Part shown: piece after piece, positions 4,001-23,963 of the stretch
Layout: each line of letters opens with the position of its first letter
Position numbering within the stretch: the first letter of the stretch is position 1
Source: Candidatus Dormiibacterota bacterium
GTDB taxonomy: Bacteria > Vulcanimicrobiota > Vulcanimicrobiia > Vulcanimicrobiales > Vulcanimicrobiaceae
Direction of reading: 5' to 3'
Assembly (NCBI GenBank): GCA_035532035.1
Contig: DATKRS010000014.1
Span: 1-38,715 of the forward strand
Length of the DNA: 38,715 nt
Made by a program: the position numbers and the translations under genes
Notes under the pieces: model-generated
Database searches by the model: none
What the model was told of the DNA's origin: nothing
The model's input: the letters and a program-made list of their open reading frames with translations, nothing else

Positions 4001-4044
4001 TTGCGGTTATTTCTGCGCGGCGCGCGCCGCCCACTTCCGCTTTG

Positions 4045-6408
4045 TTACGACGCGTCGCGCGCCCATTGCCAGTTTCGTACGTCGGGCAGGTCCTCGCCGT
4101 ATTCGTCGATATAGCAGCGATGCTCGATGAGCGTGTCTCGTATCAACTGTTTGGCGTACGCCGCCGTGTCGCCCAATCGCGCAACGCGGTCGATGACGTC
4201 GCCGGCGAGGTGGTAGCGATCGAGCTCGTTTCGCACTGTCATGTCGAACGGGGTCGTCGTCGTTCCTTCTTCTTTGTAGCCGCGCACGTGCAGGTTGTGA
4301 TGCCCGTGACGCCGGTAGGTCAAACGATGGATGAGCCACGGGTACCCGTGGAAAGCGAAGACGATGGGCTTGTCGATCGTAAAGATCTCGTCGAAGTCGG
4401 AGTCGGGAATGCCGTGCGGATGCTCGCTGTGCGGCTGCAGCGTCATGAGGTCCACGACGTTGACCACGCGCACGCGTAGTTCCGGCAGATGGCGGCGAAG
4501 AAAGGTAACGGCCGCGAGCGTTTCGAGCGTCGGCACGTCGCCACAGCACGCCATGACGACGTCGGGCTCGGCGCCTTGGTCGTTGCTCGCCCACTCCCAG
4601 ATGCCCAAGCCGGCGCTGCAATGGTTGACGGCGCCGTCCATGTCGAGCCACTGCCATTCCGGCTGCTTTCCGGCGACGATCACGTTCACGTAGTTGCGGC
4701 TGCGAAGGCAGTGATCGGCGACCGAGAGCAAGCAGTTTGCATCGGGCGGAAGATAGACGCGCACCACGTCGGCTTTTTTATTGACTACGTGATCGATGAA
4801 GCCGGGATCCTGATGACTGAAGCCGTTGTGGTCTTGCCTCCAGACGTGCGACGTCAAGAGGTAGTTGAGCGAGGCGATGGGCCTGCGCCACCCGATCGCG
4901 CGAATGGACTTCAGCCACTTTGCATGCTGGTTGAACATCGAGTCGACGATGTGGATGAACGCTTCGTAGCAGGAGAAGAAGCCGTGCCGGCCGGTGAGCA
5001 GATAGCCCTCCAGCCATCCTTGGCAGATGTGCTCGCTCAAGACCTCCATCACGCGCCCGGTCGGCGAGACGTGATCGTCGTATGGAAAGACCTCGGCGGT
5101 GGACGTTCGATCGGTCACCTCGAAGAGCGCGGTCAGGCGATTCGACGCGGTTTCGTCCGGCCCGACGACGCGAAAGCTCTGCGGATTGTCGCGAAGGACG
5201 TCGCGAAGGAGGTTGCCGAGCACGCGCGTCGCTTCCGCGCGCACGCTTCCCGGTGAGGGGACGGCTACGGCGTAATCGCGGAACTCGGGCATGACGAGAT
5301 CGTGAAGAAGGGCGCCGCCGTTTGCATGCGGATTCGCGCCCATGCGCCGGACCCCGCGAGGAGCCAGCGCCGCAATCTCGCCGTGCACGCGGCCTTCCGC
5401 GTCGAAGAGTTCTTCGGGACGGTAGCTGCGCATCCAGGCTTCGAGCATCGCGAGATGTTCGGGATTCTCGCGCACGCTCGAAAGCGGAACCTGATGCGCG
5501 CGAAACGTTCCCTCGACCTGCACGCCGTCGACGATCTTCGGCCCGGTCCAGCCCTTCGGCGTCTTGAGGATGAGGATCGGCCATTGAGGACGCGTGGAGA
5601 AGCCCCGGCGCCGCGCCTCATCTTGTATTGCCTTGATGCGCTCCACGATGGTGTCGAGCGCACTCGCCATCATCTCGTGCATCGTTGCGGGATCGTCGCC
5701 CGCGACGACGAGCGGCTCGTAACCGTAGCCGACGAAAAGCGCTACCAGCTCCTCGTGCGGGATGCGTGCGAGTACGGTCGGCCCGGCGATCTTGTATCCG
5801 TTGAGGTGGAGCACCGGGAGCACGGCACCGTCGCGAACCGGATTGAGGAACTTGTTCGAATGCCAGCTCGCCGCTAGCGCTCCGGTCTCCGCCTCGCCGT
5901 CGCCGACGACGCAGCACGCGATGAGATCCGGGTTGTCGAAGACGGCACCGTATGCGTGCGCGATCGAATAGCCGAGCTCGCCGCCCTCGTTGATCGAGCC
6001 CGGCGTCTCGGGAGCGGCATGACTCGGCACGCCTCCCGGAAACGAGAACTGTTTGAAGAGCCTGCGCATGCCGGGCTCGTCGAGGCCGACGTTCGGGTAG
6101 AGCTCGCTGTAGGTTCCCTCAAGATAGGTATTGGCGAGTAGCGCCGGGCCGCCGTGTCCCGGGCCGGTCACGAAAATCGCATTCACGTCGTACTTCTTGA
6201 TGACGCGGTTCATGTGCGCGTAGATGAAGTTTAGGCCGGGCGTCGTTCCCCAGTGGCCGAGAAGCCGAGGTTTTATGTGTTCGGGCCGCAGAGGCTCCTT
6301 GAGAAGCGGATTATCGAGCAGGTAGATTTGCCCAACGGACAGATAGTTCGCAGCGCGCCAGTACGCGTCGATGAGTGCCGAGCCGGTTGTCGATGCGGGA
6401 GCGTTCAT
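4045..6408 (-). CDS. xfp: phosphoketolase (xylulose-5-P/fructose-6-P)
   Basis: A ThDP-dependent cytosolic enzyme that splits xylulose 5-phosphate (or fructose 6-phosphate) with phosphate to acetyl-phosphate plus glyceraldehyde 3-phosphate (or erythrose 4-phosphate). It has 787 residues, the family's usual size. Family blocks are complete: [13 protein letters not shown] and [17 protein letters not shown] at the N-terminus, the ThDP-diphosphate/metal motif GDGEAETG, the [10 protein letters not shown] and [16 protein letters not shown] blocks, and a C-terminal [16 protein letters not shown]-like segment (here [10 protein letters not shown]). The frame is open 19 codons further up, but ATG 6408 has GAGGAA eight bases before it and avoids overlap with the upstream PPK2 gene. 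The product feeds directly into the Pta and AckA encoded at 18644-20646. It is probably co-transcribed with ppk2 (19-base gap). Confidence 0.97.
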
Positions 6409-6427
6409 AAAAGCTTCCTCGGACAGC

Positions 6428-7327
6428 CTATCGCGTGTCCGAGCGCTCCGCCTCTTCGTCGGCATGATATTTGCGACGGATGTCGTCGATGTCGACGATG
6501 GTCGGCGGAAACGTCATATGCAGCGCGTCGAGCGTCTCGACGACGATCTTTGAAACCACGAGGTTGCGGAACCACTTGTGGTTTGCCGGAATGACGAACC
6601 ACGGCGCGTACGGCGTGCTCGTCTTGTTGAGCGCGTCCTCGTACGCCGTGAGATATTGCGTGAAGAAGTTGCGTTCGGCGTAGTCGGATTCGCTGATCTT
6701 CCAATGCCGCGTGGGGTCGTCGAGCCGTTTCTTAAAGCGCTTTAGCTGCTCGCCCTCGCTGATGTGGAGGTAGAACTTGAGAATCGTCGTTCCGGCGAGC
6801 GAGAGGCCCTTTTCGAACTCGTTGATGAGCTCGTAGCGTTTCGACCAGACGCTCTTTGGGACGAGATCGTGCACGCGAGCGATGAGAACGTCTTCGTAAT
6901 GCGAGCGATTGAAGATCACGATCTCACCCTTCGCGGGGCACTGATTGTGCGCGCGCCAGAGAAAATCGTGCGCCGCTTCGTCGAGCGACGGCGTTTTGAA
7001 CGCGTGCACGCGTGCCCCCTGTGGATTGAGCGCGTCGAAGACATGCTCGATCGTTCCGTCCTTCCCCGCAGCATCCAATCCTTGAAGGCAGATGAGCAGA
7101 GAACGCGTCTGTTCGGCGAACATGACGTACTGAAGACCGTGCAGCTTGCGATTGTCCGCTGCGACCTCGTTCGCCGCGCTGGCTTTACCCGTATCGGGAT
7201 CCTTAAACCCGGGGTTAGCGTCGGAGAGCCGAATGCCGTGCTTCGGATGAACCATGAATGCGTCGCGATAGGTACGAGTGGACACGAATGGAATGATTCG
7301 GGAGGAGATGTGCTCGTTCATGCTCAT
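6428..7327 (-). CDS. ppk2: PPK2-family polyphosphate:nucleotide kinase
   Basis: A 299-residue enzyme that moves phosphate between polyphosphate and nucleotides (AMP/ADP to ADP/ATP, or GDP depending on subclass). The P-loop is GLDAAGKD (83-90), the Walker-B-like block [10 protein letters not shown] (139-148), and the lid region has [14 protein letters not shown]. The arrangement is the one-domain type of the polyphosphate:nucleotide phosphotransferase family. Subclass (AMP- versus ADP-directed) cannot be fixed by eye. The N-terminal ~25 residues before MVHPKHG look less conserved, so an internal start is possible; ATG 7327 and ATG 7321 are both available. It is first gene of the minus-strand run with phosphoketolase and ftsH, and divergent from the GH130 gene across a very short gap, so its promoter must overlap that gene's 5' end. 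Confidence 0.95.
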
Positions 7328-7353
7328 GCGCTACTTTGCGGAGATTCGCCGCT

Positions 7354-8388
7354 GTGGAGTGTAGCTTCACGAGATTGGGAGTAACGCTCAAGCCCAGCCG
7401 CGTGCGGGACGAACGGCAGGGCGTCTTGAATCCGGCATGCGCGCGCCTGCGCGAGGGGGCGTTGCAGCTCTATCCACGGATGGTCGCGCCGGGAAACATC
7501 TCGCGGATCGGATCGTTTCGCGCATGCGAGCGGGCAGACGGGACGCTCGAGCTGGAACAACAGGGATTCGCGCTCGAGCCCGAGGCGTCGTACGAGCTGC
7601 GCAGCAAGCCCGGTGGGTACGGCTGCGAAGACCCGCGCGTAACCTTCATCGAGGCGATCGACCGTTACGTCATGGCGTACGTAGCCTTTGGGCCCCGAGG
7701 GCCCGATATCGCGCTTGCGATCTCGGAGGACGGACTCGCGTGGCAGCGCCTCGGCCCCTTGCGATTTCAGGGCGAGACGACGTCGTTTGCCGACAAGGAT
7801 GCCGCCTTTTTTCCGGAACCGGTCCGCTCTCCGAAAGGCGTCGAGTGTTTGGCGTTCTATCATCGGCCGACGCTTGACGTCTCGGTGCGGCGGGGACAGC
7901 GCGCGCTTACCGCGCTCGAGCACCTTGCGCCCGGACGTCGCGAGGGAATCTGCGTCGGATACGTTCCTCTCGCCGATGCGCAGCGCGATGCGAGCAGCCT
8001 GTGCATCGTGACGGAGTCGCACCGGCTCTCGCTGCCGGACGCGAACTGGGGAGCGATCAAGGTCGGGGCCGGGGCGCCGCCCGTGCGCGTTAGGGAGGGC
8101 TGGCTTGCCGTGATTCACGGCGTCGACGAGCTCGAGCACGCGAGCGGAGCGGCGCTCCTGCGCTACTGCGCCGGCGTCATCGTGCATGACGCCGACCAGC
8201 TCGAGCGAATCGTCTATCGATCCTCGGAACCGCTCTTCGTGCCGGAGGCGCGCGGAGAGATTCAAGGAACGGTCGGGCACGTCGTCTTCCCGACGGCAAT
8301 CGACAAACGAGCCGACCGCGTTTTCGACATCTTTTATGGCATGGCCGACTATGAGATCGGCCGTGGCCGCCTGACGCTACAGGCATAG
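7354..8388 (+). CDS. GH130-family glycoside phosphorylase
   Basis: About 344 residues of the five-bladed propeller family GH130. Its members phosphorolyse beta-mannosides (mannosyl-glucose, mannooligosaccharides or mannosyl-N-acetylglucosamine), giving mannose 1-phosphate. The first conserved block is RLGVTLKPSRV followed by GVLNPA; the hallmark GGYGCEDPRV block (ED at about residues 92-93 from this start) carries the catalytic Asp. Later blades contain DKDAAFFPEPV, NWGAIKVGAGAPPVRVREGW and HVVFPTAI, all expected. Substrate cannot be told from the sequence. The start is uncertain: TTG 7336, GTG 7354 (GGAG ten bases before) and TTG 7375 are all in frame, and I chose GTG 7354. Sugar phosphate released here could enter glycolysis or the phosphoketolase route encoded on the other strand. 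Confidence 0.88.
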   Translation: MECSFTRLGVTLKPSRVRDERQGVLNPACARLREGALQLYPRMVAPGNISRIGSFRACERADGTLELEQQGFALEPEASYELRSKPGGYGCEDPRVTFIEAIDRYVMAYVAFGPRGPDIALAISEDGLAWQRLGPLRFQGETTSFADKDAAFFPEPVRSPKGVECLAFYHRPTLDVSVRRGQRALTALEHLAPGRREGICVGYVPLADAQRDASSLCIVTESHRLSLPDANWGAIKVGAGAPPVRVREGWLAVIHGVDELEHASGAALLRYCAGVIVHDADQLERIVYRSSEPLFVPEARGEIQGTVGHVVFPTAIDKRADRVFDIFYGMADYEIGRGRLTLQA

Positions 8389-9452: not shown

Positions 9453-9833
9453 TCAGCGAACGCGCCGCGCGTGGTCTTGAAGGCGACGCTTTGCTCGGCG
9501 GAACGCGTCGCGAACCGCGAGCGCAGGATCCTTGTACATGGCAGCGATCTCGGCGCTCTTGTGCCGCGTGACCGCCGCGTCGTCGCCGGCGGGCGTCACG
9601 CGTAGACTCGGCTCCGTGTCGATCACGAGCTCCGAGCCGGGAACCTCGATGTCGATGCGAACGTGGAACGGCGCGCCGTGTCGAATGTGACGTTGTTCCT
9701 GTTCGACGAGGACCTCGCACGTCATGATCCGATCGTAAAATCGGCTCAGCTTGCTCGCCTCTCGTTCGATGAGCCTAGTCAGCCCTTCCGATGGGTGGAG
9801 GTGCCGGTAGGTGATCTTGACGGGAATCTCCAT
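9453..9833 (-). CDS. hpf: ribosome hibernation/S30AE-family protein (HPF/RaiA-like)
   Basis: 126 residues with the S30AE fold pattern: a strand opening MEIPVKITYRHLHPSEGL, helix LTRLIEREASKLSRFYDRI, strands CEVLVEQEQR and PFHVRIDIEVPGSELVID, and a terminal basic helix [21 protein letters not shown]. This is the short or RaiA-like form without the C-terminal dimerisation domain of long HPF. Such proteins bind the 30S decoding centre and silence ribosomes in stationary phase or energy stress. An insertion after the third strand (PAGDDAAVTRHKSAEIAAMY) is more acidic/polar than usual. The frame is open far upstream into the SDR gene, but ATG 9833 begins exactly at the conserved strand. It lies 17 bases after the SDR gene and fits the survival theme of the window. 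Confidence 0.88.
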   Translation of the reverse strand: MEIPVKITYRHLHPSEGLTRLIEREASKLSRFYDRIMTCEVLVEQEQRHIRHGAPFHVRIDIEVPGSELVIDTEPSLRVTPAGDDAAVTRHKSAEIAAMYKDPALAVRDAFRRAKRRLQDHARRVR

Positions 9834-9850
9834 GTGAAGATTGTACCGCT

Positions 9851-10624
9851 TTAGCGGGCGGTGTAGCCGCCATCGATCACGAGTTCTGACCCCGTGACGA
9901 ATTTGGACTCGTCGGACGCCAGATACAGCACGCCGTATGCGATATCGTCGGGCTCGCCGAGGTGGCCGAGCGGGTGCAGATCGGCAAGCGCCCGGCGCGC
10001 CGCCTGCTCGTCGCCCGTCGATGCAACGTAGTGCGCTACCATCGGCGTTTCGATGTATCCGGGGTGTATCGAGTTCACGCGGATACGATGCGGCGCGCCG
10101 TGCAACGCCGCCGATTTTGCGAGCAGTCTGATCGCGCCTTTGCTCGCGCAATAGGCTGCAGCATCGCCTTGCCCGACCATGCCGAGGATCGACGACATGT
10201 TGATTATCGACCCGCCTCCCGCGCGCTTCATCGCGGGGAAGACGTACTTCGTCCCGAGGAAGACCCCGTCGCAGTTGATGCTCATCAGCTTGCGCCATTG
10301 ATCGAGCGTGGCGTCCGCGACGTTTCCTGTCGTGCCGATTCCAGCATTGTTCACGAGGACGTCGACCCGCTCGAAGGCTTGCAACGCCGACGCGATGACG
10401 TTCTTCCACTCATTCTCGCTTGCTACGTCGTGCTTCACGAACGTCGCCTCACCGCCGGCGGCCCGTATGGCCTTAGCCGTTGCTTCGCCGCCGGTCGCGT
10501 CGAGGTCGGTGACGACGACCTTCGCGCCCTCGCGAGCTAATAGCCGCGCGCAAGCGCTGCCGATCCCCATCGCCGCTCCCGTGACGATGGCGACCTTACC
10601 GTGAACTCTTCCTGGGCGTTCCAT
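9851..10624 (-). CDS. short-chain dehydrogenase/reductase (NAD-type)
   Basis: A 257-residue classical SDR. The dinucleotide motif is TGAAMGIG, followed by an acidic residue at the end of the second strand (VVVTDLD) that favours NAD over NADP. NNAGIG, the Ser of INMSSILG and YCASK (Tyr and Lys four apart) complete the catalytic set, and the C-terminal GSELVIDGGYTAR is typical. Closest in style to cyclopentanol/hydroxysteroid-type dehydrogenases, but the substrate cannot be assigned. ATG 10624 was chosen; GTG 10630 overlaps the upstream stop (GTGA). It is downstream of the cupredoxin/heme-porin genes without a gap, so probably the same transcript. Confidence 0.92.
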   Translation of the reverse strand: MERPGRVHGKVAIVTGAAMGIGSACARLLAREGAKVVVTDLDATGGEATAKAIRAAGGEATFVKHDVASENEWKNVIASALQAFERVDVLVNNAGIGTTGNVADATLDQWRKLMSINCDGVFLGTKYVFPAMKRAGGGSIINMSSILGMVGQGDAAAYCASKGAIRLLAKSAALHGAPHRIRVNSIHPGYIETPMVAHYVASTGDEQAARRALADLHPLGHLGEPDDIAYGVLYLASDESKFVTGSELVIDGGYTAR

Positions 10625-10626
10625 GG

Positions 10627-11094
10627 TCACGGCATCGTCGGGCGAGGATTTTCCCAGGCGGTGCCGTTTGCGTACTTGACGCGAAGCACTTCGCAGAACG
10701 GGTACGCCGTTCCGAGGGGAAATACGTCGCGCGCCATCGTGAACTCATGGTCCTCGATGAGCACGCCTGGTGAGAAGGTACCGACGTCTCTCGCGACGTC
10801 GACGAGATAGCCGCGGGCGACGAGCCCGAAATCGATCTCCGTCGCTACGACCGGCGCGGTGTTCCGAAACGACACACCCAAGAACGCGTCCCAGTAGGGG
10901 AAGAAGGGGCCGGGATGCCACCGGCCCCAGGCGTCGATCCACGGATGCCGCTGTGCGGCCGTGTGGATGTGAGGATGACACCACGTCACCTGGATCTGCG
11001 ATCCGGCAGTCTGCCGCAGCGGCTGCGTTGCAGCAGAGACCGGCAGCGCGAGGAGCGCTGCGAGGGTCGCGAGTCCCAAGAGGCGTGCGTTCAT
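10627..11094 (-). CDS. secreted protein of unknown function
   Basis: 155 residues with a clear Sec signal peptide: MNARLLGLATLAALLALPVSA, with likely cleavage after VSA-A (about residues 20-22). The mature part has a His/Trp-rich N-terminal stretch (TWCHPHIHTAAQRHPWIDAWGRWH) and two cysteines, about 37 and 133. The middle (GVSFRNTAPVVATEIDFGLVARGYLV) reads as a small beta domain, much like domains with an immunoglobulin-type fold. I do not recognise the family. It follows the heme-porin-like gene by 9 bases and overlaps or touches the SDR gene, so it should share their transcript. The His cluster might bind metal, perhaps copper given the CuA protein upstream, but that is inference. Confidence 0.75.
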   Translation of the reverse strand: MNARLLGLATLAALLALPVSAATQPLRQTAGSQIQVTWCHPHIHTAAQRHPWIDAWGRWHPGPFFPYWDAFLGVSFRNTAPVVATEIDFGLVARGYLVDVARDVGTFSPGVLIEDHEFTMARDVFPLGTAYPFCEVLRVKYANGTAWENPRPTMP

Positions 11095-11103: not shown

Positions 11104-12246
11104 TTATCTCACGTTCCGAATCGGCGCGGTGATCCAGATCATGTAGCGCCATTCGGGGGTGTTGTATTGCGCGAGAGCGTCTTCCACGTAGACGTGGACG
11201 AATGGAAGGATGTGATAGGAGAAATCGATGTTACCAGTGTGCAAGCGATTTCCCAATCCGTCGTTCGTCCACTCCTCACGTGCCGAGATAAGCCCCTTGT
11301 CGAGTACGGGCTCGTAGAACTCGAACGTCGTAGCGGTGCTCGACGCCGGAGCCAGACTCAGCCCTGGGTTGGCGTCGTACGCGCTCTGGTAGATTGCGAT
11401 CACGCCCGGGATTCCGTTGAGCGGATCGCGCTGGACGTACCCTGCGATCGAATGATACTGATCGGTGCCGCCCTCCGCAAGCGGGAACGACCCAGTCGAC
11501 CCGAAGGCACCGTACTCGAAGGGGCTCGTCGGGCTCGCGAAGGCGAGTTTGTATTGGAACGTCTTGTCGGTATCGTCCGAGAAATCGCTCGTCCCACCCC
11601 AGCCCGCTCCGCTTCCGAGCCACCCAGCTTCGGCATCGAGGCTTCCATGGATGTAGTTGATTTTGGCACCCCACCGATTGGCGTCGAGCTGGTAGGGATG
11701 TTCGCCGACGGTGATCTCCGGCGTCGAGAAGCTCGCGAGGTCGAACCACTGGCTGAAAAACGACGGTCCCGGAGCTTCGATCTTGCCGAAGAAGAGGTGC
11801 CCATCGCGGTGGAGCAGGTTGTTGTAGGCTAGCCAGAAGGTATCGAGATCGCCGGCTTGATCGTTCTGCCAAATCCACTGTTGAAAGTGGTAGGTGAAAT
11901 CGTTTCCGATCGCTCCCACCGCATGAATCGCAAGATTTCCGAACTGCGTCCGATGGGGAGCGGCCGGATCCTGAGTATCGTACGAGGTGTTCTCGCCGAT
12001 CCAAATCGGCAAGGCGCGCGCGAGCACGTGTGCGTCGAGGGACGCGTAACCGGTGCGCTGCACGTAGCGTCCGTAGGCGTTGAGGCCGGGGACCTGCGTG
12101 TGGCATAGGCTGCAAGGAACTCCGTACGCCTGTGCGAACGGCGGCATCGCCTGTGCGCGCTTCATCTCTGCCGGCGAGAGCCACACGAGCGAGACGAATA
12201 TCGCGATCGCGAGGACTGATGCTGCCGCTTGTGCGCGTCGGTTCAT
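11104..12246 (-). CDS. mono-heme c-type, porin-like exported protein
   Basis: 380 residues. A signal/anchor helix lies at about 8-24. A single c-heme motif CSLCH (Cys45, Cys48, His49) sits inside PPFAQAYGVPCSLCHTQVPGLNAYGRYV, a pattern I know from a family of exported proteins with one N-terminal heme site. The long remainder is rich in Gly, Tyr, Trp and alternating polar/hydrophobic strands (FQYKLAFASP, FEYGAFGSTG, FSYHILPFVHVYVEDAL) and ends in IWITAPIRNVR, like a beta-barrel. Predicted location is periplasm/outer membrane if the cell has one. ATG 12246 overlaps the upstream cupredoxin stop (ATGA), which fixes the start; the frame opens further up without meaning. A role in periplasmic or outer-surface electron transfer is inference. 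Confidence 0.75.
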   Translation of the reverse strand: MNRRAQAAASVLAIAIFVSLVWLSPAEMKRAQAMPPFAQAYGVPCSLCHTQVPGLNAYGRYVQRTGYASLDAHVLARALPIWIGENTSYDTQDPAAPHRTQFGNLAIHAVGAIGNDFTYHFQQWIWQNDQAGDLDTFWLAYNNLLHRDGHLFFGKIEAPGPSFFSQWFDLASFSTPEITVGEHPYQLDANRWGAKINYIHGSLDAEAGWLGSGAGWGGTSDFSDDTDKTFQYKLAFASPTSPFEYGAFGSTGSFPLAEGGTDQYHSIAGYVQRDPLNGIPGVIAIYQSAYDANPGLSLAPASSTATTFEFYEPVLDKGLISAREEWTNDGLGNRLHTGNIDFSYHILPFVHVYVEDALAQYNTPEWRYMIWITAPIRNVR

Positions 12247-12602
12247 GGCACCACGTGTACCGTGAGCGTCATGTTGGGATGACCGGCTCCGCAGACGATC
12301 GTACAATGGAGGATGTAGGTCCCGGCCTTTTGCGGCGTGACCACGACGGTCGTCCAAGTTCCCGGCATGATCGTGGTCTGCGGGATTCCGAGTTCGTCCG
12401 ACTTTAGTCCGTGCACGCCTTGCGCCGACGTAAGTCGTAGCCTGGTCGGTTGCCCGACGTGTAGCTCGATTGTCGAGGGCGTGAACTTCCAGTTGGACGC
12501 AACGATGTCGATGCTCGGGTGAGCAGCGGCAATAAGAACCGATGATGTCAAGGTAAGGGCGACCGCAGCGGCCGCCATGCGAACGAGGGGAACGAATCTC
12601 AT
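12243..12602 (-). CDS. exported cupredoxin with a CuA site
   Basis: 119 residues: signal peptide (about 1-27), then a single cupredoxin domain. The copper ligands are His64 (QGVHGLK) and the loop C-x3-C-x3-H-x2-M (Cys100, Cys104, His108, Met111; HCTIVCGAGHPNM). That is the binuclear CuA pattern of cytochrome oxidase subunit II, not the mononuclear plastocyanin type. There is no N-terminal transmembrane hairpin and no neighbouring oxidase subunit I, so it should be a soluble or lipid-free periplasmic electron carrier or a CuA-like stand-alone domain. It is first gene of the run CuA protein, heme-porin-like protein, secreted protein, SDR, hpf. The ba3 subunit II at 15830 has an equivalent site (C-x3-C-x3-H-x2-M), so the two could share copper-loading factors. 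Confidence 0.85.
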   Translation of the reverse strand: MRFVPLVRMAAAAVALTLTSSVLIAAAHPSIDIVASNWKFTPSTIELHVGQPTRLRLTSAQGVHGLKSDELGIPQTTIMPGTWTTVVVTPQKAGTYILHCTIVCGAGHPNMTLTVHVVP

Positions 12603-12681: not shown

Positions 12682-13050
12682 TCAGGCGGAGAGCAGAGCC
12701 TCCACCATGCGCAGCAATGTATCGGGCTCGCACGGTTTGGGGATTGCGGCCCGCACGCGGTAGATCCGCATGAAATCCCGGACGGCGTCGTTCGGTGGGG
12801 TGGCCGTGTAGAGTGCGAGAGCGAGCTCGGAGTTCGCGGGATCCGCGCGAATCCGCCGGATCAGTTCCCCGCCTGAAAGCACGGGCATCGAGAGATCGAT
12901 CAGCGCGAGCTCGGGGCGCTCCATAGAAACGCGCTCCAGCGCGCTCTCCCCGTCGGCGGCCTCGACGACCGTGTGCCCGGCGTGGCGCAGGAGCGTCGTG
13001 AGAAGTAGCCGGTTTGAAGCGTCGTCGTCAGCGACGAGGATCTTCGCCAT
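12682..13050 (-). CDS. single-domain response regulator
   Basis: 122 residues forming one receiver domain and nothing else. The acidic pocket is DDD near the N-terminus (MAKILVADDDASN), the phospho-acceptor Asp is in LALIDLSMP (about residue 52), the Thr is in ALYTATPP and the Lys in AAIPKP. It should signal by protein interaction, as CheY- or Spo0F-type proteins do. ATG 13050 is preferred over TTG 13056 and makes it overlap the end of the double-receiver gene by 23 bases. It is last gene of the kinase/double-receiver/receiver run, so it can be part of a phosphorelay with them. Confidence 0.93.
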   Translation of the reverse strand: MAKILVADDDASNRLLLTTLLRHAGHTVVEAADGESALERVSMERPELALIDLSMPVLSGGELIRRIRADPANSELALALYTATPPNDAVRDFMRIYRVRAAIPKPCEPDTLLRMVEALLSA

Positions 13051-13849
13051 CTGCAATGAGCTCGTCGATCTCGCGGCGGAGTCGCTCGGGATCGATCGGC
13101 CTGAGGATGAACTTGCGCGCGCCGAGCTCGATCCCTCGGCGACGATCCTTTGTCTGCCACGCCGTCGACGAAAGAAAGACGAATGGAATCGCTCGCCATT
13201 GCTCGCTTGCGTTCACCCGCTGGATGAGCTCGAAGCCTCCCTCGCCGGGCATGTGCAGGTCGCAGATGATGAGATCGGGGCGTACGTCTTGGAGCAGCTG
13301 GAGCGCCTCGCGCACGCTGCGGGCCTCCGCTACGCGATAGCCGAGCGGGACGAGCGCGGCACGTACGACGTCGAGATTCGTTTGAAGATCGTCCACGGCG
13401 AGGATGATCGGACCGGGCGTCGGCGTCGTGACCGCGGCCGAAGCGGGCGTCTGCGCGTGCCGGGGCGCCGCAGCACCCTTGCCGTGGCGCAGAAATCCCT
13501 CGACCTGCTGGACGAATCGTTCGGGATCGATCGGCTTTGGGATGTAGCCGTCGAAGCCGGCCTTGGCGATGCGCGCGTCGTCGCCCGGCATCGCGAGCGC
13601 CGTGACCGCGATCAGGGGAACCGACGAGAGATTCGGGTCGCTCTTGAAGTGTCGCGCAAACTCGTAGCCGTCCATGCCGGGCATGAGGATGTCGACCAGG
13701 GCTGCGTCGTAGCGGGTGTTGCGCGCTCTCTCGAGACCGCCGACGCCGTCGGCCGCGGCGTCGCACTCGTATCCGAAAGCGCCGAGGAGGTAGAGCATGA
13801 GATCCAAGTTCGCGCGGTTGTCGTCGACGGCGAGGATGCGAGCCGACAC
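13028..13849 (-). CDS. tandem two-receiver response regulator
   Basis: 273 residues with two receiver domains and no DNA-binding or enzymatic output. Receiver 1 (about 1-120) starts SARILAVDDNRANLD with acceptor Asp in AALVDILMPGMDGYEF and Lys in YIPKPIDPERF. A Pro/Ala/Thr linker (about 130-147) follows. Receiver 2 (about 148-270) starts IILAVDDLQTNLD with acceptor Asp in LIICDLHMPGEGGFEL and Lys in FILRPIDPERL, where the usual KP is changed to RP. The GTG start at 13849 lies one base after the kinase stop and gives a clean N-terminus; the frame extends into the kinase without meaning. Loss of the conserved lysine in receiver 2 suggests altered phosphorylation dynamics. Confidence 0.9.
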   Translation of the reverse strand: MSARILAVDDNRANLDLMLYLLGAFGYECDAAADGVGGLERARNTRYDAALVDILMPGMDGYEFARHFKSDPNLSSVPLIAVTALAMPGDDARIAKAGFDGYIPKPIDPERFVQQVEGFLRHGKGAAAPRHAQTPASAAVTTPTPGPIILAVDDLQTNLDVVRAALVPLGYRVAEARSVREALQLLQDVRPDLIICDLHMPGEGGFELIQRVNASEQWRAIPFVFLSSTAWQTKDRRRGIELGARKFILRPIDPERLRREIDELIADGEDPRR

Positions 13850-13850
13850 G

Positions 13851-14972
13851 CTATGCCTTTGCGTCGACGGGCAGCGTGAGCGTGAAGACGCTGCCCTCGC
13901 CAGGCTCACTGATGAAGCTCAGGTGTGCGCCGATCAGCTTCGAGAGTTTCTGTGAAAGGTGAAGGCCAAGCCCGGCGCCTTCTGCGCTTCGCCTGGAGAG
14001 CGGCTCGAGCTGTTCGAATGCTTGAAAGAGACGCTCGCGGTCCTGCGGCTTGATCCCGATCCCGGTATCCCGCACGTTGACGTCGCAGTGGAGACCCGAG
14101 CTTGTTGCCCGCGTGGAGACGTCGATCGTCACGGAACCCTTCTCGGTATACTTCAGCGCATTATTTGCAAGGTTGATGAGAATCTGCGAGAGCGCGCGGC
14201 GATCGCTGCGCACGACCGTCCGTTCGCGCGGCAGCACGACGTCGAACTCGAGCCCCTTGCTCGCGGCCATCGAACGCAACGAATCGCGGACTTCCTCGAT
14301 GACGTCGTGTAGGCTCATCGGTTCCAAGTGCAGCTCCACCTTGCCGGCTTCGATCTTTGCGAGATCGAGAATGTCGCTGATGAGCGAGAGCAGATGGCGG
14401 CCACTCGACTGAACGATGCGTAGTTGCTGTTCTTGTTCCTCGGTAAGCGGCCCGGGCAATCGCATGAGCAGCGTCCCGGTAAAGCCGATGATCGCGTTGA
14501 GAGGCGTTCGCAGCTCGTGGCTCATCGAGGCAAGGAACTGGTCCTTGGCGGCATTTGCAGCCTGGAGTTCCGTGTTTTTCGCCTGAAGCGTGCGCTCGAA
14601 CTCCTTGCGCTCGGTGATGTCGCGAATGGCGCTGACCACGAACGTGCCTTCGTCGGTCTCGAGCGGGCTGAGACTGATCTCGACGGGTACGTGGCGCCCG
14701 TCCTTGCGCACGCCGGCGAGCTCCAATCCGATCCCCATCGGCCGAGTCTTCGGGTCGCGGACGTACGCCGAGCGGTGCCCGGCGTGCCGCGCGCGCACCT
14801 TCTGCGGCACGAGCATCTCAATTGGCTGCCCGAGCATCTCGTCGCGGCCGTAGCCGAAAAGGCGCTCGGCCTGTTCGTTGACGAGCCGTATGCGTCCCTC
14901 ACCATCGACCGCGACCATGGCATCGGGAAACGAGTTGAAGAGCGGAAACGAGCTCGCCGAAAACGGCCTCAT
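13851..14972 (-). CDS. soluble PAS-sensor histidine kinase
   Basis: 373 residues, no membrane helix. A PAS domain (about 10-125) starts FNSFPDAMVAVDGEGRIRLVN and ends in the usual SAIRDITERKEFE. A short coiled linker leads to the HisKA domain with phospho-acceptor His152 in FLASMSHELRTPLNA. The HATPase domain has the N-box ILINLANNALKYTEKG, the G1 box RDTGIGI and the G2 box GAGLGLHLSQKL. All catalytic motifs are intact. The PAS domain lacks a visible heme or flavin ligand signature, so the signal is unknown. It starts 53 bases from, and divergent to, the operon with the stand-alone H-box protein and the ba3 oxidase. It probably phosphorylates the receivers encoded directly downstream and might control the divergent operon. 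Confidence 0.95.
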   Translation of the reverse strand: MRPFSASSFPLFNSFPDAMVAVDGEGRIRLVNEQAERLFGYGRDEMLGQPIEMLVPQKVRARHAGHRSAYVRDPKTRPMGIGLELAGVRKDGRHVPVEISLSPLETDEGTFVVSAIRDITERKEFERTLQAKNTELQAANAAKDQFLASMSHELRTPLNAIIGFTGTLLMRLPGPLTEEQEQQLRIVQSSGRHLLSLISDILDLAKIEAGKVELHLEPMSLHDVIEEVRDSLRSMAASKGLEFDVVLPRERTVVRSDRRALSQILINLANNALKYTEKGSVTIDVSTRATSSGLHCDVNVRDTGIGIKPQDRERLFQAFEQLEPLSRRSAEGAGLGLHLSQKLSKLIGAHLSFISEPGEGSVFTLTLPVDAKA

Positions 14973-15829: not shown

Positions 15830-16303
15830 ATGCACGTCCACAGATACGAACGCGCGTGGATGATTTTCGGCGTGGCGATGCTCGTCGTCTTTCTCGTTCT
15901 CCTCGCGGTCGCCGCGATCTCAAACGACGTGGTACCGCCGAGCGGCATGCAGCAAATCGATCCTCGTGCAGTCGCCCGTACGCCTCCATTTGATAAACCC
16001 GGATTGCGCCGTTTGCCGGACGGATCGTACGAAGCATACTACGTCGCACGCGTCTTCTCGTTCGATCCTTCGGTTTTGACGATTCCGGTGGGAGCGAAGG
16101 TCACATTCTACGTCACGAGCACGGACGTCGTGCATGGCTTCTTCGTTCCCGGCACCGACATCAACATGATGGTGATTCCGGGGTGGGTGAACACGGAGAC
16201 GCACGTCTTTCGACGGCCTGGTGAATACTTGCTGATCTGTCACGAGTACTGCGGCATCGGCCATCAAAATATGTTTGGCAAGATCGAGGTCGCGAAAGTA
16301 TGA
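15830..16303 (+). CDS. cbaB: ba3-type cytochrome c oxidase subunit II
   Basis: 157 residues: one N-terminal membrane helix (about 10-31) and a periplasmic cupredoxin domain. The CuA ligands are His102 (DVVHGFF) and the loop CHEYCGIGHQNM (Cys137, Cys141, His145, Met148), with the bridging acidic residue in HEYC. It accepts electrons from a cytochrome c or cupredoxin and passes them to heme b in subunit I. Length and single helix match the Thermus-type B family rather than the two-helix aa3 form. The ATG directly follows the IIa stop and the end overlaps subunit I by four bases (ATGA), so the three subunits are one translational unit. Confidence 0.96.
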   Translation: MHVHRYERAWMIFGVAMLVVFLVLLAVAAISNDVVPPSGMQQIDPRAVARTPPFDKPGLRRLPDGSYEAYYVARVFSFDPSVLTIPVGAKVTFYVTSTDVVHGFFVPGTDINMMVIPGWVNTETHVFRRPGEYLLICHEYCGIGHQNMFGKIEVAKV

Positions 16304-17931
16304 TTGCAGATCGTCAGATGCGCCGCGAGAACCGCGTCGTCATCGCGCACGTGTACACGGCAACGGCGGCGATCGCGCTGGGTGCAATCTTCGGCGTCTT
16401 TCAGGGCTTTTCGCGAGCAGGAGCCGTGAGCGCCCCCGCGTGGTTCGACTACTATCGTATCCTGACGATGCACGGCGTGCTGATGGCGCTCGTCTTTACG
16501 ACGTTCTTCATCACGGGGCTCTCGCTCTTCGTCACCTATCGCGCGATTCCACGAGAGCGCGCGGTGGCGGTGGGGTGGGTCGGATGGATCGTGATGCTCG
16601 TCGGCACCGCGATGGCTGCGGTCGAGATCGTGCTCGGCAACGCGACCGTGCTCTACACATTCTACGCTCCCCTCAAAGCGAGCCCGTGGTTCTACATCGG
16701 GGCGACGATCTTGGTGCTCGGCACGTGGATCGTCGCATACGAGATCTTCGAGAACGTCGTCTACTGGCGCAAGAACAATCCCGGCAAACCCGTTCCTCTC
16801 GTCGTGTTTTGCGCAGCGGCGACGTTCGTCATGTGGGTCGTTGCCACGTTCGGGGTTGTCGCCGAGATGGCGATGCTCATTCCGTGGGCCTTCGGCTGGG
16901 TCCCCAGCGTCAACGTGTTGCTGACGCGGTTGTTCTTTTGGTACTTCGGCCACCCGTTGGTCTACTTCTGGATCATGGGCGCGTACATCATCTGGTATAA
17001 CATCATCCCAAAGCGCTACGGTGGGAACGTCTTCAGCGACGGCTTGACGCGCCTGACGTTCATCATGCTGATCTTGCTCTCGACTCCCGTCGGTATCCAC
17101 CACGAGTTCATGGAGCCCGGCATCTCGAGCGCGTGGAAAGCGCTCTTCACGGTCACGACCTACGGGGTCGTCATTCCGTCCTTCATCACCGCATTCGCGA
17201 TCTTCGCCTCGTTCGAGCTCGCCGCCATCAAGCAGGGGCGCAAGGGGTTCATTGCCACGGTACGATCGCTGCCGTGGAACGATCCGGCGTTTTCGGGCGC
17301 CGCATATGGCATGTTGCTCTTCATTCTCGGGGGCTTCGGCGGCCTCGTGAACGCCTCGTACGGCATGGATTCGGTCGTGCACAACACGATTTGGGTTGTC
17401 GGGCACTTCCACGTCACCGTCGGCGGACCGGTGGCGCTGACGTTTCTGGGCGCCGCGTACTGGATGATCCCGCGCCTCACCGGACGCGCCCTGTGGAAGC
17501 CGGAATGGGCGCTGATGCAGACGCGTCTGTGGTTCCTCGGCATGCTCGTGATGTCGTTCTCCATGCATTTCGCCGGCCTGCTCGGGGCCCCGCGCAGGAC
17601 TTCAGATGTCAGCTACGGCGGTGCCGCCGTCGCAGTAGCGTGGCAGCCGTACATGATCGCCGCCGCCGCCGGCGGCCTGTTGCTCTTCCTCGCGATTCTG
17701 ACGTTCGTCGCAGTCGCCGTCGGCACGCTGCTGCAGAACAAGAAGACGGAGTCGATGGAGGTCGAGTTCGCGGTGCCGGCGATGCCCGCGGAGGCGACGC
17801 CCAGCGCTCTGCAGCACCTCTTTCGCTGGGGCGTTATCGCTCTCGTCCTTGCGGTGCTGGTCTATGCGGGACCGATCGGTGACCTCGTCCACGCGCCAGG
17901 ATATAGCGTTGCTGGAATGCGAACGTGGTAA
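16300..17931 (+). CDS. cbaA: ba3-type cytochrome c oxidase subunit I
   Basis: 543 residues with about 13 membrane helices. Metal ligands are all visible: heme b His58 (TMHG), CuB His218 with Tyr222 in the cross-link motif WYFGHPLVYFW, CuB His267-His268 (VGIHHEF), and heme His369/His371 (VVGHFHVTVGG) after VVHNTIW. The HPLVY block and HHEFMEPG are of the B (ba3) family type; the A-type K- and D-channel residues are not expected here. It reduces O2 to water and pumps protons; B-type enzymes generally work well at low oxygen. A C-terminal helix (about 512-530) ends the protein. No subunit III or heme-synthesis gene is adjacent, so those must be elsewhere. A response-regulator gene follows 6 bases later. 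Confidence 0.96.
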   Translation: MIADRQMRRENRVVIAHVYTATAAIALGAIFGVFQGFSRAGAVSAPAWFDYYRILTMHGVLMALVFTTFFITGLSLFVTYRAIPRERAVAVGWVGWIVMLVGTAMAAVEIVLGNATVLYTFYAPLKASPWFYIGATILVLGTWIVAYEIFENVVYWRKNNPGKPVPLVVFCAAATFVMWVVATFGVVAEMAMLIPWAFGWVPSVNVLLTRLFFWYFGHPLVYFWIMGAYIIWYNIIPKRYGGNVFSDGLTRLTFIMLILLSTPVGIHHEFMEPGISSAWKALFTVTTYGVVIPSFITAFAIFASFELAAIKQGRKGFIATVRSLPWNDPAFSGAAYGMLLFILGGFGGLVNASYGMDSVVHNTIWVVGHFHVTVGGPVALTFLGAAYWMIPRLTGRALWKPEWALMQTRLWFLGMLVMSFSMHFAGLLGAPRRTSDVSYGGAAVAVAWQPYMIAAAAGGLLLFLAILTFVAVAVGTLLQNKKTESMEVEFAVPAMPAEATPSALQHLFRWGVIALVLAVLVYAGPIGDLVHAPGYSVAGMRTW

Positions 17932-17937: not shown

Positions 17938-18639
17938 GTGGAACGCAAACGGATTTTGGTCGTCGATGACGAGCCGCAGATCGTCGAGGTTCTGCACGCG
18001 TACCTCGAACGGGAGGGGCTCATCGTCGACTCCGCCGGTACGGTGGCGGAAGCGCTCGAGAAGATCGGCGCGCTTCGCCCGGATATGTTGATCCTCGACA
18101 TCACATTGCCGGACGGCAGTGGGTTAGACGTCCTGCGCGCCGTCTCCGGGCCGAATGGGCGGATTCCCTCGATCATGCTGACCGCGCGCGCCGAGGAGGC
18201 GGATCGCATAGTCGGTCTCGAGCTCGGTGCCGACGATTACGTCACGAAGCCGTTCTCGGCACGCGAAGTCGTAGCACGCGTTCGCGCGCTCTTCCGCAGG
18301 GTCGAAGAGACCGTCGTTTCGCCGTTGCAGCGCGCGGCGAAGAAGACGCTCGTCGGCAATTTGGAGATCGACCACGAGTTTCACGAAGTCCACATCGCGG
18401 GAAGTTCGGCGAATGTGACGGCGACCGAGTTCCGGATCCTTGCGCTCTTGGCGGAGAATCCAGGCGAGGTCTTCACGCGTTCGCATCTGCTCGATCGTTT
18501 GAACGACGGCGGCGACATCTTCGAGCGTACGCTCGACCGGCACATCAACAATCTGCGCAAAAAGATCGAGCCGGATCCGCACAACCCTGAGTACGTCCTG
18601 ACGGTGTACGGCGTGGGCTACAAGATGCGCCGGCCGTAA
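17938..18639 (+). CDS. OmpR/PhoB-type response regulator
   Basis: 233 residues. The receiver domain (about 1-120) has DDE near residues 10-12, acceptor Asp54 in LILDITLPDG, Thr in IMLTAR and Lys104 in YVTKPFS. The winged-helix effector (about 135-233) has VTATEFRILALLAENPGEVFTRSHLLDRL, the RTLDRHINNLRKKIE recognition segment and the terminal YVLTVYGVGYKM. It is therefore a DNA-binding transcription regulator. GTG 17938 is the start, six bases after the oxidase subunit I stop. No kinase is adjacent on this strand; the soluble PAS kinase at 13851 is the nearest candidate partner. It sits between the oxidase genes and pta-ackA, so it may control both. Confidence 0.95.
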   Translation: MERKRILVVDDEPQIVEVLHAYLEREGLIVDSAGTVAEALEKIGALRPDMLILDITLPDGSGLDVLRAVSGPNGRIPSIMLTARAEEADRIVGLELGADDYVTKPFSAREVVARVRALFRRVEETVVSPLQRAAKKTLVGNLEIDHEFHEVHIAGSSANVTATEFRILALLAENPGEVFTRSHLLDRLNDGGDIFERTLDRHINNLRKKIEPDPHNPEYVLTVYGVGYKMRRP

Positions 18640-18643
18640 CGCG

Positions 18644-19573
18644 ATGCACGTAGAGCGCGTTTTACCTGCTGGCTGGCACGCCGATCTCCTGCGGCGCTGC
18701 GAGGGCCTGCCGCCGGCCCGCACCGCCGTCGTCCATCCGTGCGACGTGCTCGCGCTCGAAGGCGCTGTATCCGCCGCTCGCGCCGGCCTGATCGTCCCGG
18801 TGCTCGTCGGGAACGAGGAGAAGATTCGCGCCGTTGCCAGAGATGCATCGCTCGACGTCTCCACATACGAGATCGTCTCTGCCGCGCACAGTCACGCCGC
18901 CGCCGCGATCGCGGTGCAGATGGCGCGCGCCGGGAACGTCGAGGCACTGATGAAAGGCAGCCTTCATTCCGACGAACTGCTGCACGAGGTCACGCAGCCG
19001 TTATCGGGCCTGCACACGGAGCGGCGCATGAGCCACGCCTTCCTCGTCGACGTGGCTGCGTATCCGCAACCGCTCGTGATCAGCGACGCCGTCGTCAATA
19101 TCGCGCCGACGCTTGATGAGAAGCGCGACATCGTGCGCAATGCCGTCGATCTCGCGCACGCGGTGGGAATCGCGGACGTCCGCGTGGCGCTCCTGGCGGC
19201 GGTCGAGACGGTCTCCTCCAAGATTCAGTCGACGCTCGATGCCGCGGCGCTCTGCAAGATGGCGGAGCGAGGACAAATTCCCGAGGGACTGCTCGACGGC
19301 CCACTTGCGCTCGATGATGCGCTGAGCCCGGCCGCTGCGATGGAGAAGAAGATTCATTCGCTCGTCGCAGGACGCGCGAACGTGCTGATCGTTCCCGACA
19401 TCGACTCGGGGAACGTTCTCGTGAAAGCGCTGAGCTTGCTCGCCCATGCGGCACTCGCCGGAGTCGTTTTGGGCGCGCGAGTCCCCATCGCGCTGGCGAG
19501 CCGCGCCGACAACGTGGCGACCCGTGTCGCGTCGGCGGCTGTCGCACTTCTGCTCGCGCGCGCCGCCAGGTAA
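18644..19573 (+). CDS. pta: phosphate acetyl/butyryltransferase
   Basis: 309 residues, the size of the catalytic Pta/Ptb domain without the N-terminal extensions of long Pta. Conserved blocks include VLVGNEEKI, EALMKGSLHSDELL, GLHTERRMSHAFLVDV, ISDAVVNIAPTLDEKRDIVRNAVDLAHAVGI, and the phosphate/CoA region VLIVPDIDSGNVLVKAL. The wording of these blocks is closest to the enoyl-CoA hydratase-linked phosphate acetyltransferase type. Reaction: acetyl-phosphate plus CoA to acetyl-CoA plus phosphate, reversible. It directly precedes acetate kinase by 8 bases, and the acetyl-phosphate can come from the phosphoketolase at 4045. Substrate chain length (acetyl versus butyryl) is not certain from sequence. 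Confidence 0.93.
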   Translation: MHVERVLPAGWHADLLRRCEGLPPARTAVVHPCDVLALEGAVSAARAGLIVPVLVGNEEKIRAVARDASLDVSTYEIVSAAHSHAAAAIAVQMARAGNVEALMKGSLHSDELLHEVTQPLSGLHTERRMSHAFLVDVAAYPQPLVISDAVVNIAPTLDEKRDIVRNAVDLAHAVGIADVRVALLAAVETVSSKIQSTLDAAALCKMAERGQIPEGLLDGPLALDDALSPAAAMEKKIHSLVAGRANVLIVPDIDSGNVLVKALSLLAHAALAGVVLGARVPIALASRADNVATRVASAAVALLLARAAR

Positions 19574-19581
19574 CGGAGTTC

Positions 19582-20646
19582 GTGCGCATCCTGTGCATCG
19601 ACGCAGGATCCTCGTCGATCAAGTTCGCGTGTTACGATCGGGATTCGGCGAACGAGCGGGCCGTCTACTCGGGAGCGGCCGAGACGAAGGGCGAGGGCGC
19701 CGCGGCCGGGCTCTGGAGAGCCGTTGAAGAGCACGACCCTCCCGACGCGATCGCCCATCGCATCGTCTTCGGTGGTCCGGGCTGCAATGCGCCCGTTCGG
19801 CTGAGCGATGCGATACTGAACGGCCTGCGCGAGCTCCGCGCGTGGGATCCGCTGCATCTCGGCGTCGAGGTCGCAATCGTCGAGGATGCCCTGCGGCGCT
19901 TTGCGCTCCTGCCGCAAGTGCTCTGCTTCGACACCGCATTCTTTCGCGGATTGCCCGACGTTGCCACGCGCCTCCCGCTGCCCCGGACGCTGCCGGCATC
20001 GCTGCGACGGTACGGCTTTCACGGACTCTCGTACGAGTGGGCGCTCGCATCGCTCGGCCATCCGCGGGGGCGGACCGTCCTCGCACACCTGGGCTCGGGC
20101 GCGAGCCTCTGCGCCGTTCGCGATGACGAGCCGGTTGATACGACGATGGGATACAGCGTGCTCGGCGGCGTCATGATGGCGACGCGGCCGGGCGATCTCG
20201 ATCCCGGCGTCATGCTTGCGCTCCTCGCGCAGGGATACACTGCCGCCCACCTCTCGAAGATGCTCTATGAGGAAAGCGGGCTGAAGGGCGTCTCCGGTTT
20301 CTCCGGCGACATGCGCGAGCTGCTCGCCGCGCGTGCAACGGATCCTCAGGCCGCGGAAGGCGTGGCGCTTTTCGTGCACCAGCTCCGAAAGCATCTGGGA
20401 GCGATGGTCGCCGTCCTGGGCGGCATCGACACGCTCGTCTTCACCGGGGGCATCGGAGAGCACGCGCCGGTGATTCGGGAAGAGGCATGCGCGCCGTTCG
20501 GATATCTCGGCATGCTACTCGACGATTCGGCCAACACCCGCGGCGACCCAACGATTTCCGCGGCGCGGAGCAGCGTCGTCGTGCGGATCGTCCGCGCGAA
20601 CGAGAACGCCATGATCGCGCGCCACGCGTGGTCCTTGTTGACATGA
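19582..20646 (+). CDS. ackA: acetate kinase (short form, altered N-terminal motif)
   Basis: 354 residues, about 45 fewer than typical acetate kinases. The ASKHA signatures are present: the N-terminal phosphate-binding strand ILCIDAGSSSIKF, the block RRYGFHGLSYEW (catalytic-region His), HLGSGASLCAVRDDEPVDTTMGY, MMATRPGDLDPGVML and FTGGIGEHAPVIRE, and the expected end VRANENAMIARHAW. One departure stands out: the family usually has Asn in the first motif (N-x-GSSS) and here it is Asp at about residue 7. The function is acetyl-phosphate plus ADP to acetate plus ATP. GTG 19582 starts eight bases after pta. The Asn-to-Asp change could lower activity or change the acyl or phosphate donor; it could also mark a neighbouring carboxylate kinase subtype (propionate or butyrate). 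Confidence 0.88.
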   Translation: MRILCIDAGSSSIKFACYDRDSANERAVYSGAAETKGEGAAAGLWRAVEEHDPPDAIAHRIVFGGPGCNAPVRLSDAILNGLRELRAWDPLHLGVEVAIVEDALRRFALLPQVLCFDTAFFRGLPDVATRLPLPRTLPASLRRYGFHGLSYEWALASLGHPRGRTVLAHLGSGASLCAVRDDEPVDTTMGYSVLGGVMMATRPGDLDPGVMLALLAQGYTAAHLSKMLYEESGLKGVSGFSGDMRELLAARATDPQAAEGVALFVHQLRKHLGAMVAVLGGIDTLVFTGGIGEHAPVIREEACAPFGYLGMLLDDSANTRGDPTISAARSSVVVRIVRANENAMIARHAWSLLT

Positions 20647-20649
20647 CGC

Positions 20650-20892
20650 TTGCCGAAGCCGCGCGCAGCGACGCTTTGGCGGTGCTCGCGCAGCTTCAAA
20701 CCTCGTCGGCCGCAGCTTCCGCCGTCGTTCGTGCTCGTGATCGCGGCGATCGTCGTTGCGTATGCGATCCTGGCCGAAGCGATGAAGGCCTGGTTCTTCC
20801 GCCTTCCGCGCGTGGTGACGGTTGTCCCCGCTCGACCGAATCGCCGTATCCTGCGCATCGCATCACGCTGGGTAAAGGCGCGCCGGCGCTGA
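20650..20892 (+). pseudogene. C-terminal remnant of a cation-transporting P-type ATPase
   Basis: In this frame the segment from about residue 21 to 53, LPPSFVLVIAAIVVAYAILAEAMKAWFFRL, reads like the last transmembrane helix of large cation-pumping P-type ATPases (MgtA/proton-pump type), which end in …PL...F..LV..I..AY..L.E..KRWF.R.. . No phosphorylation, nucleotide-binding or other membrane segments exist nearby. It starts at TTG just after ackA and ends 17 bases before uspA. A short surviving tail of a deleted gene is the simplest reading. An independent single-helix membrane protein is possible. Confidence 0.45.
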
Positions 20893-20909
20893 ACATGAAA
20901 GGAGAAGAT

Positions 20910-21344
20910 GTGTTCAAGAAGATGCTGCTTGCCTACGACGGATCGCCCTGCGCGCAGTCCGCGTTTGGGACCGCACTCAGCCTTGCGAAGGCCGAATCCT
21001 CGGCGCTTACGATTTGCACCGTAGTGGATCCGATCGAGATCGCCGGTGCGAACGCGCCTATGCCACCGACCCAGGCCGCACTCGACGACGCCCTCTCGCG
21101 CGCGCGCTCGATGCTTGCCGATGCTGCGTCTCGGGCGCGGGAGGCGGGCGTGAACGCGAGCACGGAGCTCTTGGAAGGCGAGCCCGCGTACGAGCTCGTG
21201 ACGCTGGCGGGTCGTTTGGGCGTCGACGTCATCGTCATGGGTACGCACGGTCGCTCGGGCCTGAAGCGGCTGTTTCTCGGCAGCGTTGCCGAGGAGACGC
21301 TCCGCAGCGCGGGCGTTCCCGTCGTTGTCGTGCATCAAAAGTAG
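20910..21344 (+). CDS. universal stress protein, UspA family
   Basis: 144 residues, one Usp domain: MFKKMLLAYDGSPCAQSAFGTALSLAKAE at the start and the ATP-binding signature VIVMGTHGRSGLKRLFLGSVAEETLRSAGVPVVVV at the end. The G-x2-G-x9-GS(V) pattern is intact, so nucleotide binding is likely. GTG 20910 has AAAGGAG five bases before it; the longer open frame that begins inside ackA is not supported. Usp proteins help survival under starvation, oxygen limitation and stationary phase. It lies between the acetate genes and the BON protein. Confidence 0.95.
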   Translation: MFKKMLLAYDGSPCAQSAFGTALSLAKAESSALTICTVVDPIEIAGANAPMPPTQAALDDALSRARSMLADAASRAREAGVNASTELLEGEPAYELVTLAGRLGVDVIVMGTHGRSGLKRLFLGSVAEETLRSAGVPVVVVHQK

Positions 21345-21427
21345 CTCCGCGCAAGAAATCTTCGCAGGAACTTCACGAGCGTTTCCCCCAGCGGACATAT
21401 CGTTTGGATTGAAGGGGGATTCGCCCG

Positions 21428-23654: not shown

Positions 23655-23697
23655 CAGGCGGGCCGAGGTCGAATGCGGGTGCGCCGCAATCGAGGCA

Positions 23698-23725: not shown

Positions 23726-23756
23726 CGCTGTATGCGCGCGTAGGGTGAGCCGAAAT

Positions 23757-23777: not shown

Positions 23778-23789
23778 GAGGTTTACGTT

Positions 23790-23951: not shown

Positions 23952-23963
23952 GGCTCCCGCGAG

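Follow-up and report, generated by a model that had tools for sequence, protein, structure and literature searches.

A stand-alone CuA cupredoxin paired with a Cyc2-like mono-heme porin in Vulcanimicrobiota: a candidate module for inward electron transfer

Cyc2 is a fused cytochrome-porin and an Fe(II) oxidase, and much about the steps downstream of it remains unknown according to its reference study (PMC8406198). The route by which electrons leave cytochrome-porins of this type is poorly known, and the locus described here raises the question of what a free CuA protein does beside a porin that carries a heme motif. The locus lies in a 38,715-nucleotide stretch of DNA (the window) that belongs to the Vulcanimicrobiota (Eremiobacterota), and its two central genes encode a cupredoxin and a porin-like protein, here called CUP and POR. 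The features of the window that bear on the question are the following.

10627-11094, minus strand: exported His-rich protein of 155 residues (WCHPHIHTAAQRHPW...) without a known family, lying 9 bp downstream of POR
11104-12246, minus strand: POR, a predicted exported mono-heme cytochrome fused to a 16-strand outer-membrane porin, Cyc2-like, 380 residues
12100-12150, minus strand: heme-cap signature in POR, A-M-P-P-F-A-Q-A-Y-G-V-P-CSLCH, a degenerate Cyc2 motif plus CxxCH
12243-12602, minus strand: CUP, an exported stand-alone CuA cupredoxin of 119 residues, assigned from Pfam, ligand conservation, model and fold match
12682-13909, minus strand: two response regulators or receiver proteins (13028-13909 and 12682-13056), overlapping or closely spaced, between the kinase and CUP
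13851-14972, minus strand: sensor histidine kinase with a FixL-like PAS domain, upstream of CUP on the same strand and heading the gene run
15830-16303, plus strand: subunit II of the ba3-type oxidase, 157 residues, containing a CuA site of its own (CHEYCGIGHQNM)
16300-17931, plus strand: ba3-type oxidase subunit I, 543 residues (PF00115, 291 bits), the proposed electron sink

The gene order on the minus strand is HK-RR2-RR1-CUP-POR-O155-SDR with overlaps or short gaps throughout, the stop codon of CUP and the start codon of POR overlapping as ATGA.

CUP begins with a Sec-type signal peptide (the export signals of both proteins were judged by eye) and contains the motif CTIVCGAGHPNM, that is C-x3-C-x3-H-x2-M, with a further His upstream in VHG. 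The copper ligands are H64, C100, C104, H108, and M111, and these five side-chain ligands show no variation in 34 aligned homologues from related genomes, so the motif is not a product of chance. CUP passes the Pfam cut-offs for COX2 (27.4 bits, cut-off 22) and Cupredoxin_1 (47.6 bits, cut-off 27), and its score of 43.9 bits against the CoxB equivalog, which describes a full subunit II, lies under the curated cut-off of 147.7. Its closest solved relatives are Thermus-type CuA domains. The structural model has a pLDDT of about 97 across the domain, CuA folds rank top among its matches, and the CuA domain of the Thermus ba3 oxidase (2cua) is matched with Z 13.7 and 1.5 A over 94 residues. The five ligands that characterize CuA are thus placed within a cupredoxin fold, as in oxidase subunit II of Thermus ba3; unlike that subunit, CUP is a stand-alone exported protein. 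The initial annotation had described an exported cupredoxin with this ligand pattern and a separate His, and this description is borne out. CUP is accordingly named a CuA cupredoxin, with a dinuclear centre predicted from its ligand set and fold.

Other origins of such a protein were considered. NosZ models match CUP through the CuA domain only, which rules out a fragment of N2O reductase. A substitute for a missing oxidase CuA is likewise ruled out, and CUP would be an additional carrier, because subunit II of the ba3 oxidase has its own CuA motif. A plasmid search with CUP found nothing beyond distant cupredoxins and subunits II of oxidases. An orphan CuA cupredoxin paralogue, about 50% identical to CUP and without a porin neighbour, was noted at L154:6073-6441 (G000:C10), close to a gene resembling peptide chain release factor 2.

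POR has no family match in Pfam or NCBIfam, no sequence match in the PDB, and no relative in the viral contigs searched. Its only CxxCH is CSLCH at residues 45-49, and downstream of the heme-cap signature come PGL (residues 53-55) and LNAYGRY. Residues C45, C48, H49, P53, L55, N56, G59, R60, and Y61 are invariant in 37 sequences whose identity falls to 27-29%. An AlphaFold2 model built from the 37-sequence alignment (mean pLDDT 81.8, pTM 0.79) predicts an N-terminal helical cap bearing the CxxCH and exactly 16 beta-strands. The top Foldseek matches of the model are all outer-membrane porins, and the best PDB folds by VIA-align are OprP (2o4v, Z 22.6, 3.5 A over 287 residues) and OprO (4rjw, Z 22.5), with general porins scoring within one Z unit of these two. 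The 16-strand fold is common to general porins, and therefore the fold alone is no proof of kinship with Cyc2; the fold searches list no Cyc2 structure, which has no bearing either way. POR is thus predicted to be a heme-bearing barrel, in agreement with the initial reading of a single N-terminal CxxCH followed by a barrel-like body, rather than a soluble non-barrel domain.

Cyc2 has been defined by the motif AxPxFAR[Q/K][T/Y], a CxxCH, a PxL, a length of at least 365 residues, and a 16-strand porin, and OprO and OprP structures were named as its homologues (PMC8406198). POR resembles Cyc2 in its signal peptide, in AxPxFA..Y before a lone N-terminal CxxCH, in the PxL soon after, in its length of 380 residues, in its predicted 16-strand barrel, and in having OprO and OprP as best folds. 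It differs in the motif itself, AMPPFAQAY, in which Q replaces R and A replaces Q/K; FAR[Q/K] is absent from the 37-sequence POR alignment, where FAQ and FAK forms dominate. It differs also in its GRY-type signature, LN[AS]YGRY[VI]Q, and in having CuA as its partner. A plasmid search with POR gave one match, a Methylocystis Cyc2 homologue (P0001) with the strict motif as FARQT. The tblastn identity is 42% across residues 17-81, and the POR profile aligns to P0001 with an hhalign probability of 95.7 and an E-value of 9e-9 over 119 columns that cover the cytochrome domain and the first strands, so the two cytochrome domains are homologous. Further plasmid homologues carry FARQT or FAAQT, so the strict motif is not absolute. 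Since the R and Q/K positions differ, POR is not classed as a strict Cyc2; it is best described, from sequence and model, as Cyc2-like. Because of these two departures, Fe(II) oxidation cannot be transferred to POR by homology and is here a proposal only. Cytochrome-porins of this kind are known, as is their presence in the phylum, a Cyc2-like gene having been reported in one Eremiobacterota metagenome-assembled genome (MAG) from acid mine drainage (PMC8357290).

The association of the two genes extends well beyond the window. A single scan of genome contigs with the pattern LN[AS]YGRY[VI]Q yielded 61 relatives, all labelled Eremiobacterota, WPS-2, or unnamed bacteria, and the GRY signature was found only there. 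Of 60 related genomes, 52 contain a POR relative and 54 a CUP relative, the weakest of these belonging to more distant families. When non-redundant porins were counted, a CuA gene stood less than 1 kb upstream on the same strand in 46/63 plain GRY-type porins of Vulcanimicrobiota, plain meaning the GRY signature with no extra domain, and 17/63 had no CuA gene directly upstream. The corresponding counts are 0/9 for porins with a C-terminal cytochrome c domain (Fisher p 4e-5 against the plain porins, uncorrected for kinship) and 0/11 for FG-type paralogues; the loci are phylogenetically related, and the counts are not independent events. CUP and POR form a conserved gene module, and the neighbourhood search proposed with the initial annotation finds the pair co-encoded in dozens of genomes. 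At one locus (L086:9031-9369 and 9465-11020) a single porin has a CuA gene on either side; the upstream one shares its strand, and the other is convergent.

In-frame fusions of POR to a C-terminal CuA domain occur in L060 (513 residues) and L102 (486 residues counted from the heme-cap motif). Both are single open frames that run from the heme-porin through a linker to the CuA domain; in L060 the linker has 40 residues and Pfam Cupredoxin_1 is matched at 411-492. In L057 a cytochrome c domain lies at 417-488 (Pfam), the same position as the fused CuA of L060. A quick maximum-likelihood tree joins L058 (CuA upstream), L057 (cytochrome c fused), and L060 and L102 (CuA fused) in one supported group, and at least four changes of the cytochrome-c label are needed on it. 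This mixed group implies that partners have been exchanged at one position. Porin C-termini face the periplasm (PMC8406198), so a fused CuA would sit there. In the proteobacterial homologues examined, c-type cytochromes are encoded nearby, in one case together with a HiPIP. The plasmid-borne proteobacterial homologues of Cyc2 are thus similar to the CUP-POR pair in that a cytochrome-porin gene adjoins one for a periplasmic electron carrier, and differ in having a c-type cytochrome or HiPIP in place of CuA as that carrier. Taken together, the fusions and the exchange with cytochrome c suggest that CuA occupies the position of the periplasmic electron acceptor. Porins with a C-terminal cytochrome c were recorded at L057:1110-2585, L083, L085, L144, L149, L167, L168, L170, and L171, and at G000:C19:112080-113447 in the window's own genome; they are predicted two-heme outer-membrane proteins with a fused periplasmic carrier.

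The oxidase of the window offers a candidate destination for the electrons. It is assigned to the ba3/B-type from its COX1 family and small CuA subunit II; the latter matches PF00116 with 48 bits and reaches 70 bits against the CoxB equivalog, below the cut-off of 147.7. The oxidase genes (15830-17931) begin about 3.2 kb from CUP, on the opposite strand and in a separate gene run. The initial statement that no oxidase lies in the operon therefore holds for the gene run itself and misses the neighbouring ba3 genes, which are contiguous with the pair in relatives. Thirty-four pairs have enough flanking sequence to be testable; 19 of them have ba3 subunit I no more than 6 kb away, and the other 15 have no ba3 within that distance. 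In six genomes (L066, L067, L069, L070, L076, and L077) COX2, COX1, CUP, and POR follow one another directly in this order and in one direction, and COX1 is separated from the POR heme motif by 556-649 bp; the chance of a locus that close is estimated at about 1% or less for a 2-3 Mb genome.

The upstream part of the gene run is also shared, in that the order HK-RR2-RR1-CUP-POR is retained in L052, and a homologue of the 155-residue protein near the pair in L060 and L063 makes that protein an optional member of the locus. The PAS domain of the kinase has FixL chains as its best match among named molecules. In the alignment a His stands opposite the heme-proximal His of FixL, the heme ligand there, and the two distal arginines that are key in FixL are apparently absent. 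Heme-based O2 sensing, and with it O2-responsive control of the locus, is possible. The genome encodes Omp85, one cytochrome c assembly protein, and a second oxidase besides ba3. It is 96% complete and gives no RuBisCO match, which leaves autotrophic iron oxidation via the Calvin cycle unsupported, so the locus would serve lithoheterotrophy or supply energy for survival, as opposed to RuBisCO-based autotrophy. Some MAGs among the relatives bear the labels palsa and bog. The surroundings of the oxidase and the CUP-POR pair are dense in energy-stress type genes: FtsH, phosphoketolase, PPK2, acetate kinase, universal stress proteins (USPs), BON, a CopA-type ATPase, and PEP synthase are encoded within 2024-8280 and 17938-28992 of the window, and phosphoketolase, acetate kinase, and USP recur beside the pair in relatives. 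This gene set seems to resemble a low-energy or low-oxygen programme.

On this evidence we favour, with moderate confidence, a reading in which CUP and POR together act as a module that carries electrons inward, from the outside through the POR heme and CuA to the ba3 oxidase. The N-terminal mono-heme domain of POR would plug the periplasmic mouth of the barrel in the manner of Cyc2, and the pore would admit a small reductant, Fe(II) in solution being the likeliest, which would reduce the heme. The heme would pass the electron to periplasmic CUP, which would replace the cytochromes c found beside Cyc2 homologues elsewhere. CUP may in turn reduce the CuA of the nearby-encoded ba3-type oxidase, where O2 would be reduced, and low O2 may induce the locus, to judge from the FixL-like kinase that shares its gene run. 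Electron movement between a heme protein and a CuA carrier, as the initial annotation had it, remains the best reading, and "between" probably means inward. Several findings count against this reading: the departures of POR from the strict Cyc2 motif, the position of the window's ba3 genes on the opposite strand and in a separate gene run, the 15/34 pairs with no ba3 nearby, the second oxidase, the orphan CUP paralogue, and the 17/63 porins without CuA. A broader claim is evenly poised in our judgement, namely that in Vulcanimicrobiota a dedicated dinuclear CuA protein, sometimes attached covalently to the barrel, serves as the first periplasmic electron acceptor of outer-membrane cytochrome-porins in a minimal heme-porin/CuA/ba3 chain of three parts for reductants outside the cell such as Fe(II), with CuA and cytochrome c interchangeable in evolution.

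The donor is the part of this route on which another reading has the most weight. Electrons might flow inward along the same path from reduced humic substances or another organic or small soluble donor, which would make the pair a general scavenger in acidic peat and soil. The departures of POR from the strict Cyc2 motif, the host's lack of a RuBisCO match, and the palsa and bog relatives all speak for such a donor; however, the architecture and best folds of POR agree with Cyc2 and a Cyc2-like gene is on record from an Eremiobacterota MAG of acid mine drainage (PMC8357290), and we regard a donor other than Fe(II) as unlikely, if well short of negligible. The direction of flow is not fixed by a single heme, and periplasmic electrons could instead pass from CUP through POR to an external acceptor such as Fe(III), a redox outlet at low O2 that would suit the energy-stress setting (phosphoketolase, acetate kinase, USP, BON, and the FixL-like kinase). 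CuA centres before oxidases typically lie at about +0.25 V, which is high for an outlet, and the ba3 linkage indicates O2 as the sink, so outward flow appears improbable.

Two further readings would remove electron transfer from the centre of the locus. Small exported copper proteins are known to serve in CuA assembly, and CUP could likewise deliver copper to the CuA of ba3 or help to assemble that site, with POR a redox-gated pore for copper or a nutrient and any electron transfer incidental. The frequent gene linkage to ba3 and the CopA-like ATPases near some POR loci would fit this function, but the full set of five CuA ligands, present in 34/34 homologues, exceeds what a transient donor needs, and a protein that is fused to a porin or swapped with cytochrome c fits an electron acceptor and not a chaperone; we give this reading a small probability, equal to that of outward flow. 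The least probable reading, and a very doubtful one, takes POR for a diffusion porin whose heme site is a non-functional relic, and explains its pairing with CUP by shared regulation alone. Its fold is that of an ordinary porin and the role of the heme is predicted, yet nine residues between C45 and Y61, both included, are invariant across the alignment, and the fusions and the partner exchange also argue against a relic.

The inward module can be set beside the Fe(II) oxidation chain of Acidithiobacillus, which depends on Cyc2, ends at an oxidase, and includes the periplasmic cupredoxins rusticyanin and AcoP. These two are mononuclear copper carriers, whereas CUP has the ligands of a dinuclear CuA centre. 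Among single-domain cupredoxins, one with a green site has also been described (PMC4059628). The open-access literature searched gave no description of the CuA partner, of the fusions, or of the ba3-linked order, and its only match for CuA together with Cyc2 and porins, or for fused and stand-alone CuA cupredoxins, was PMC10654088, which does not describe such a pair. The initial view that the module was not known as described thus stands for the CuA partner and gives way for the porin, which is of the known Cyc2-like kind (PMC8406198, PMC8357290). The locus offers a concrete acceptor for electrons leaving such porins, with natural fusions as evidence, and its two small expressible proteins are suited to direct testing. 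If the reading is true, the range of CuA would widen, since besides forming a site inside oxidases it would serve an outer-membrane heme protein as a free carrier, and the oxidation of extracellular reductants would be added to the biology of a mostly uncultured and little-studied soil and peat phylum.

Other mono-heme porin-like genes were noted along the way. A POR paralogue of 51% identity without CUP, at G000:C31 (L089:10717-11877), adjoins a CopA-like ATPase, and the search flagged a TAG within its matched stretch. A second class of mono-heme porin-like proteins in the same phylum, of about 360-400 residues (L155-L164 and L166), has the signature PxFA[HQ]xY..CxxCH..PxLNxFG..GYRLPG, and in the loci read no CuA gene lies beside any of them.
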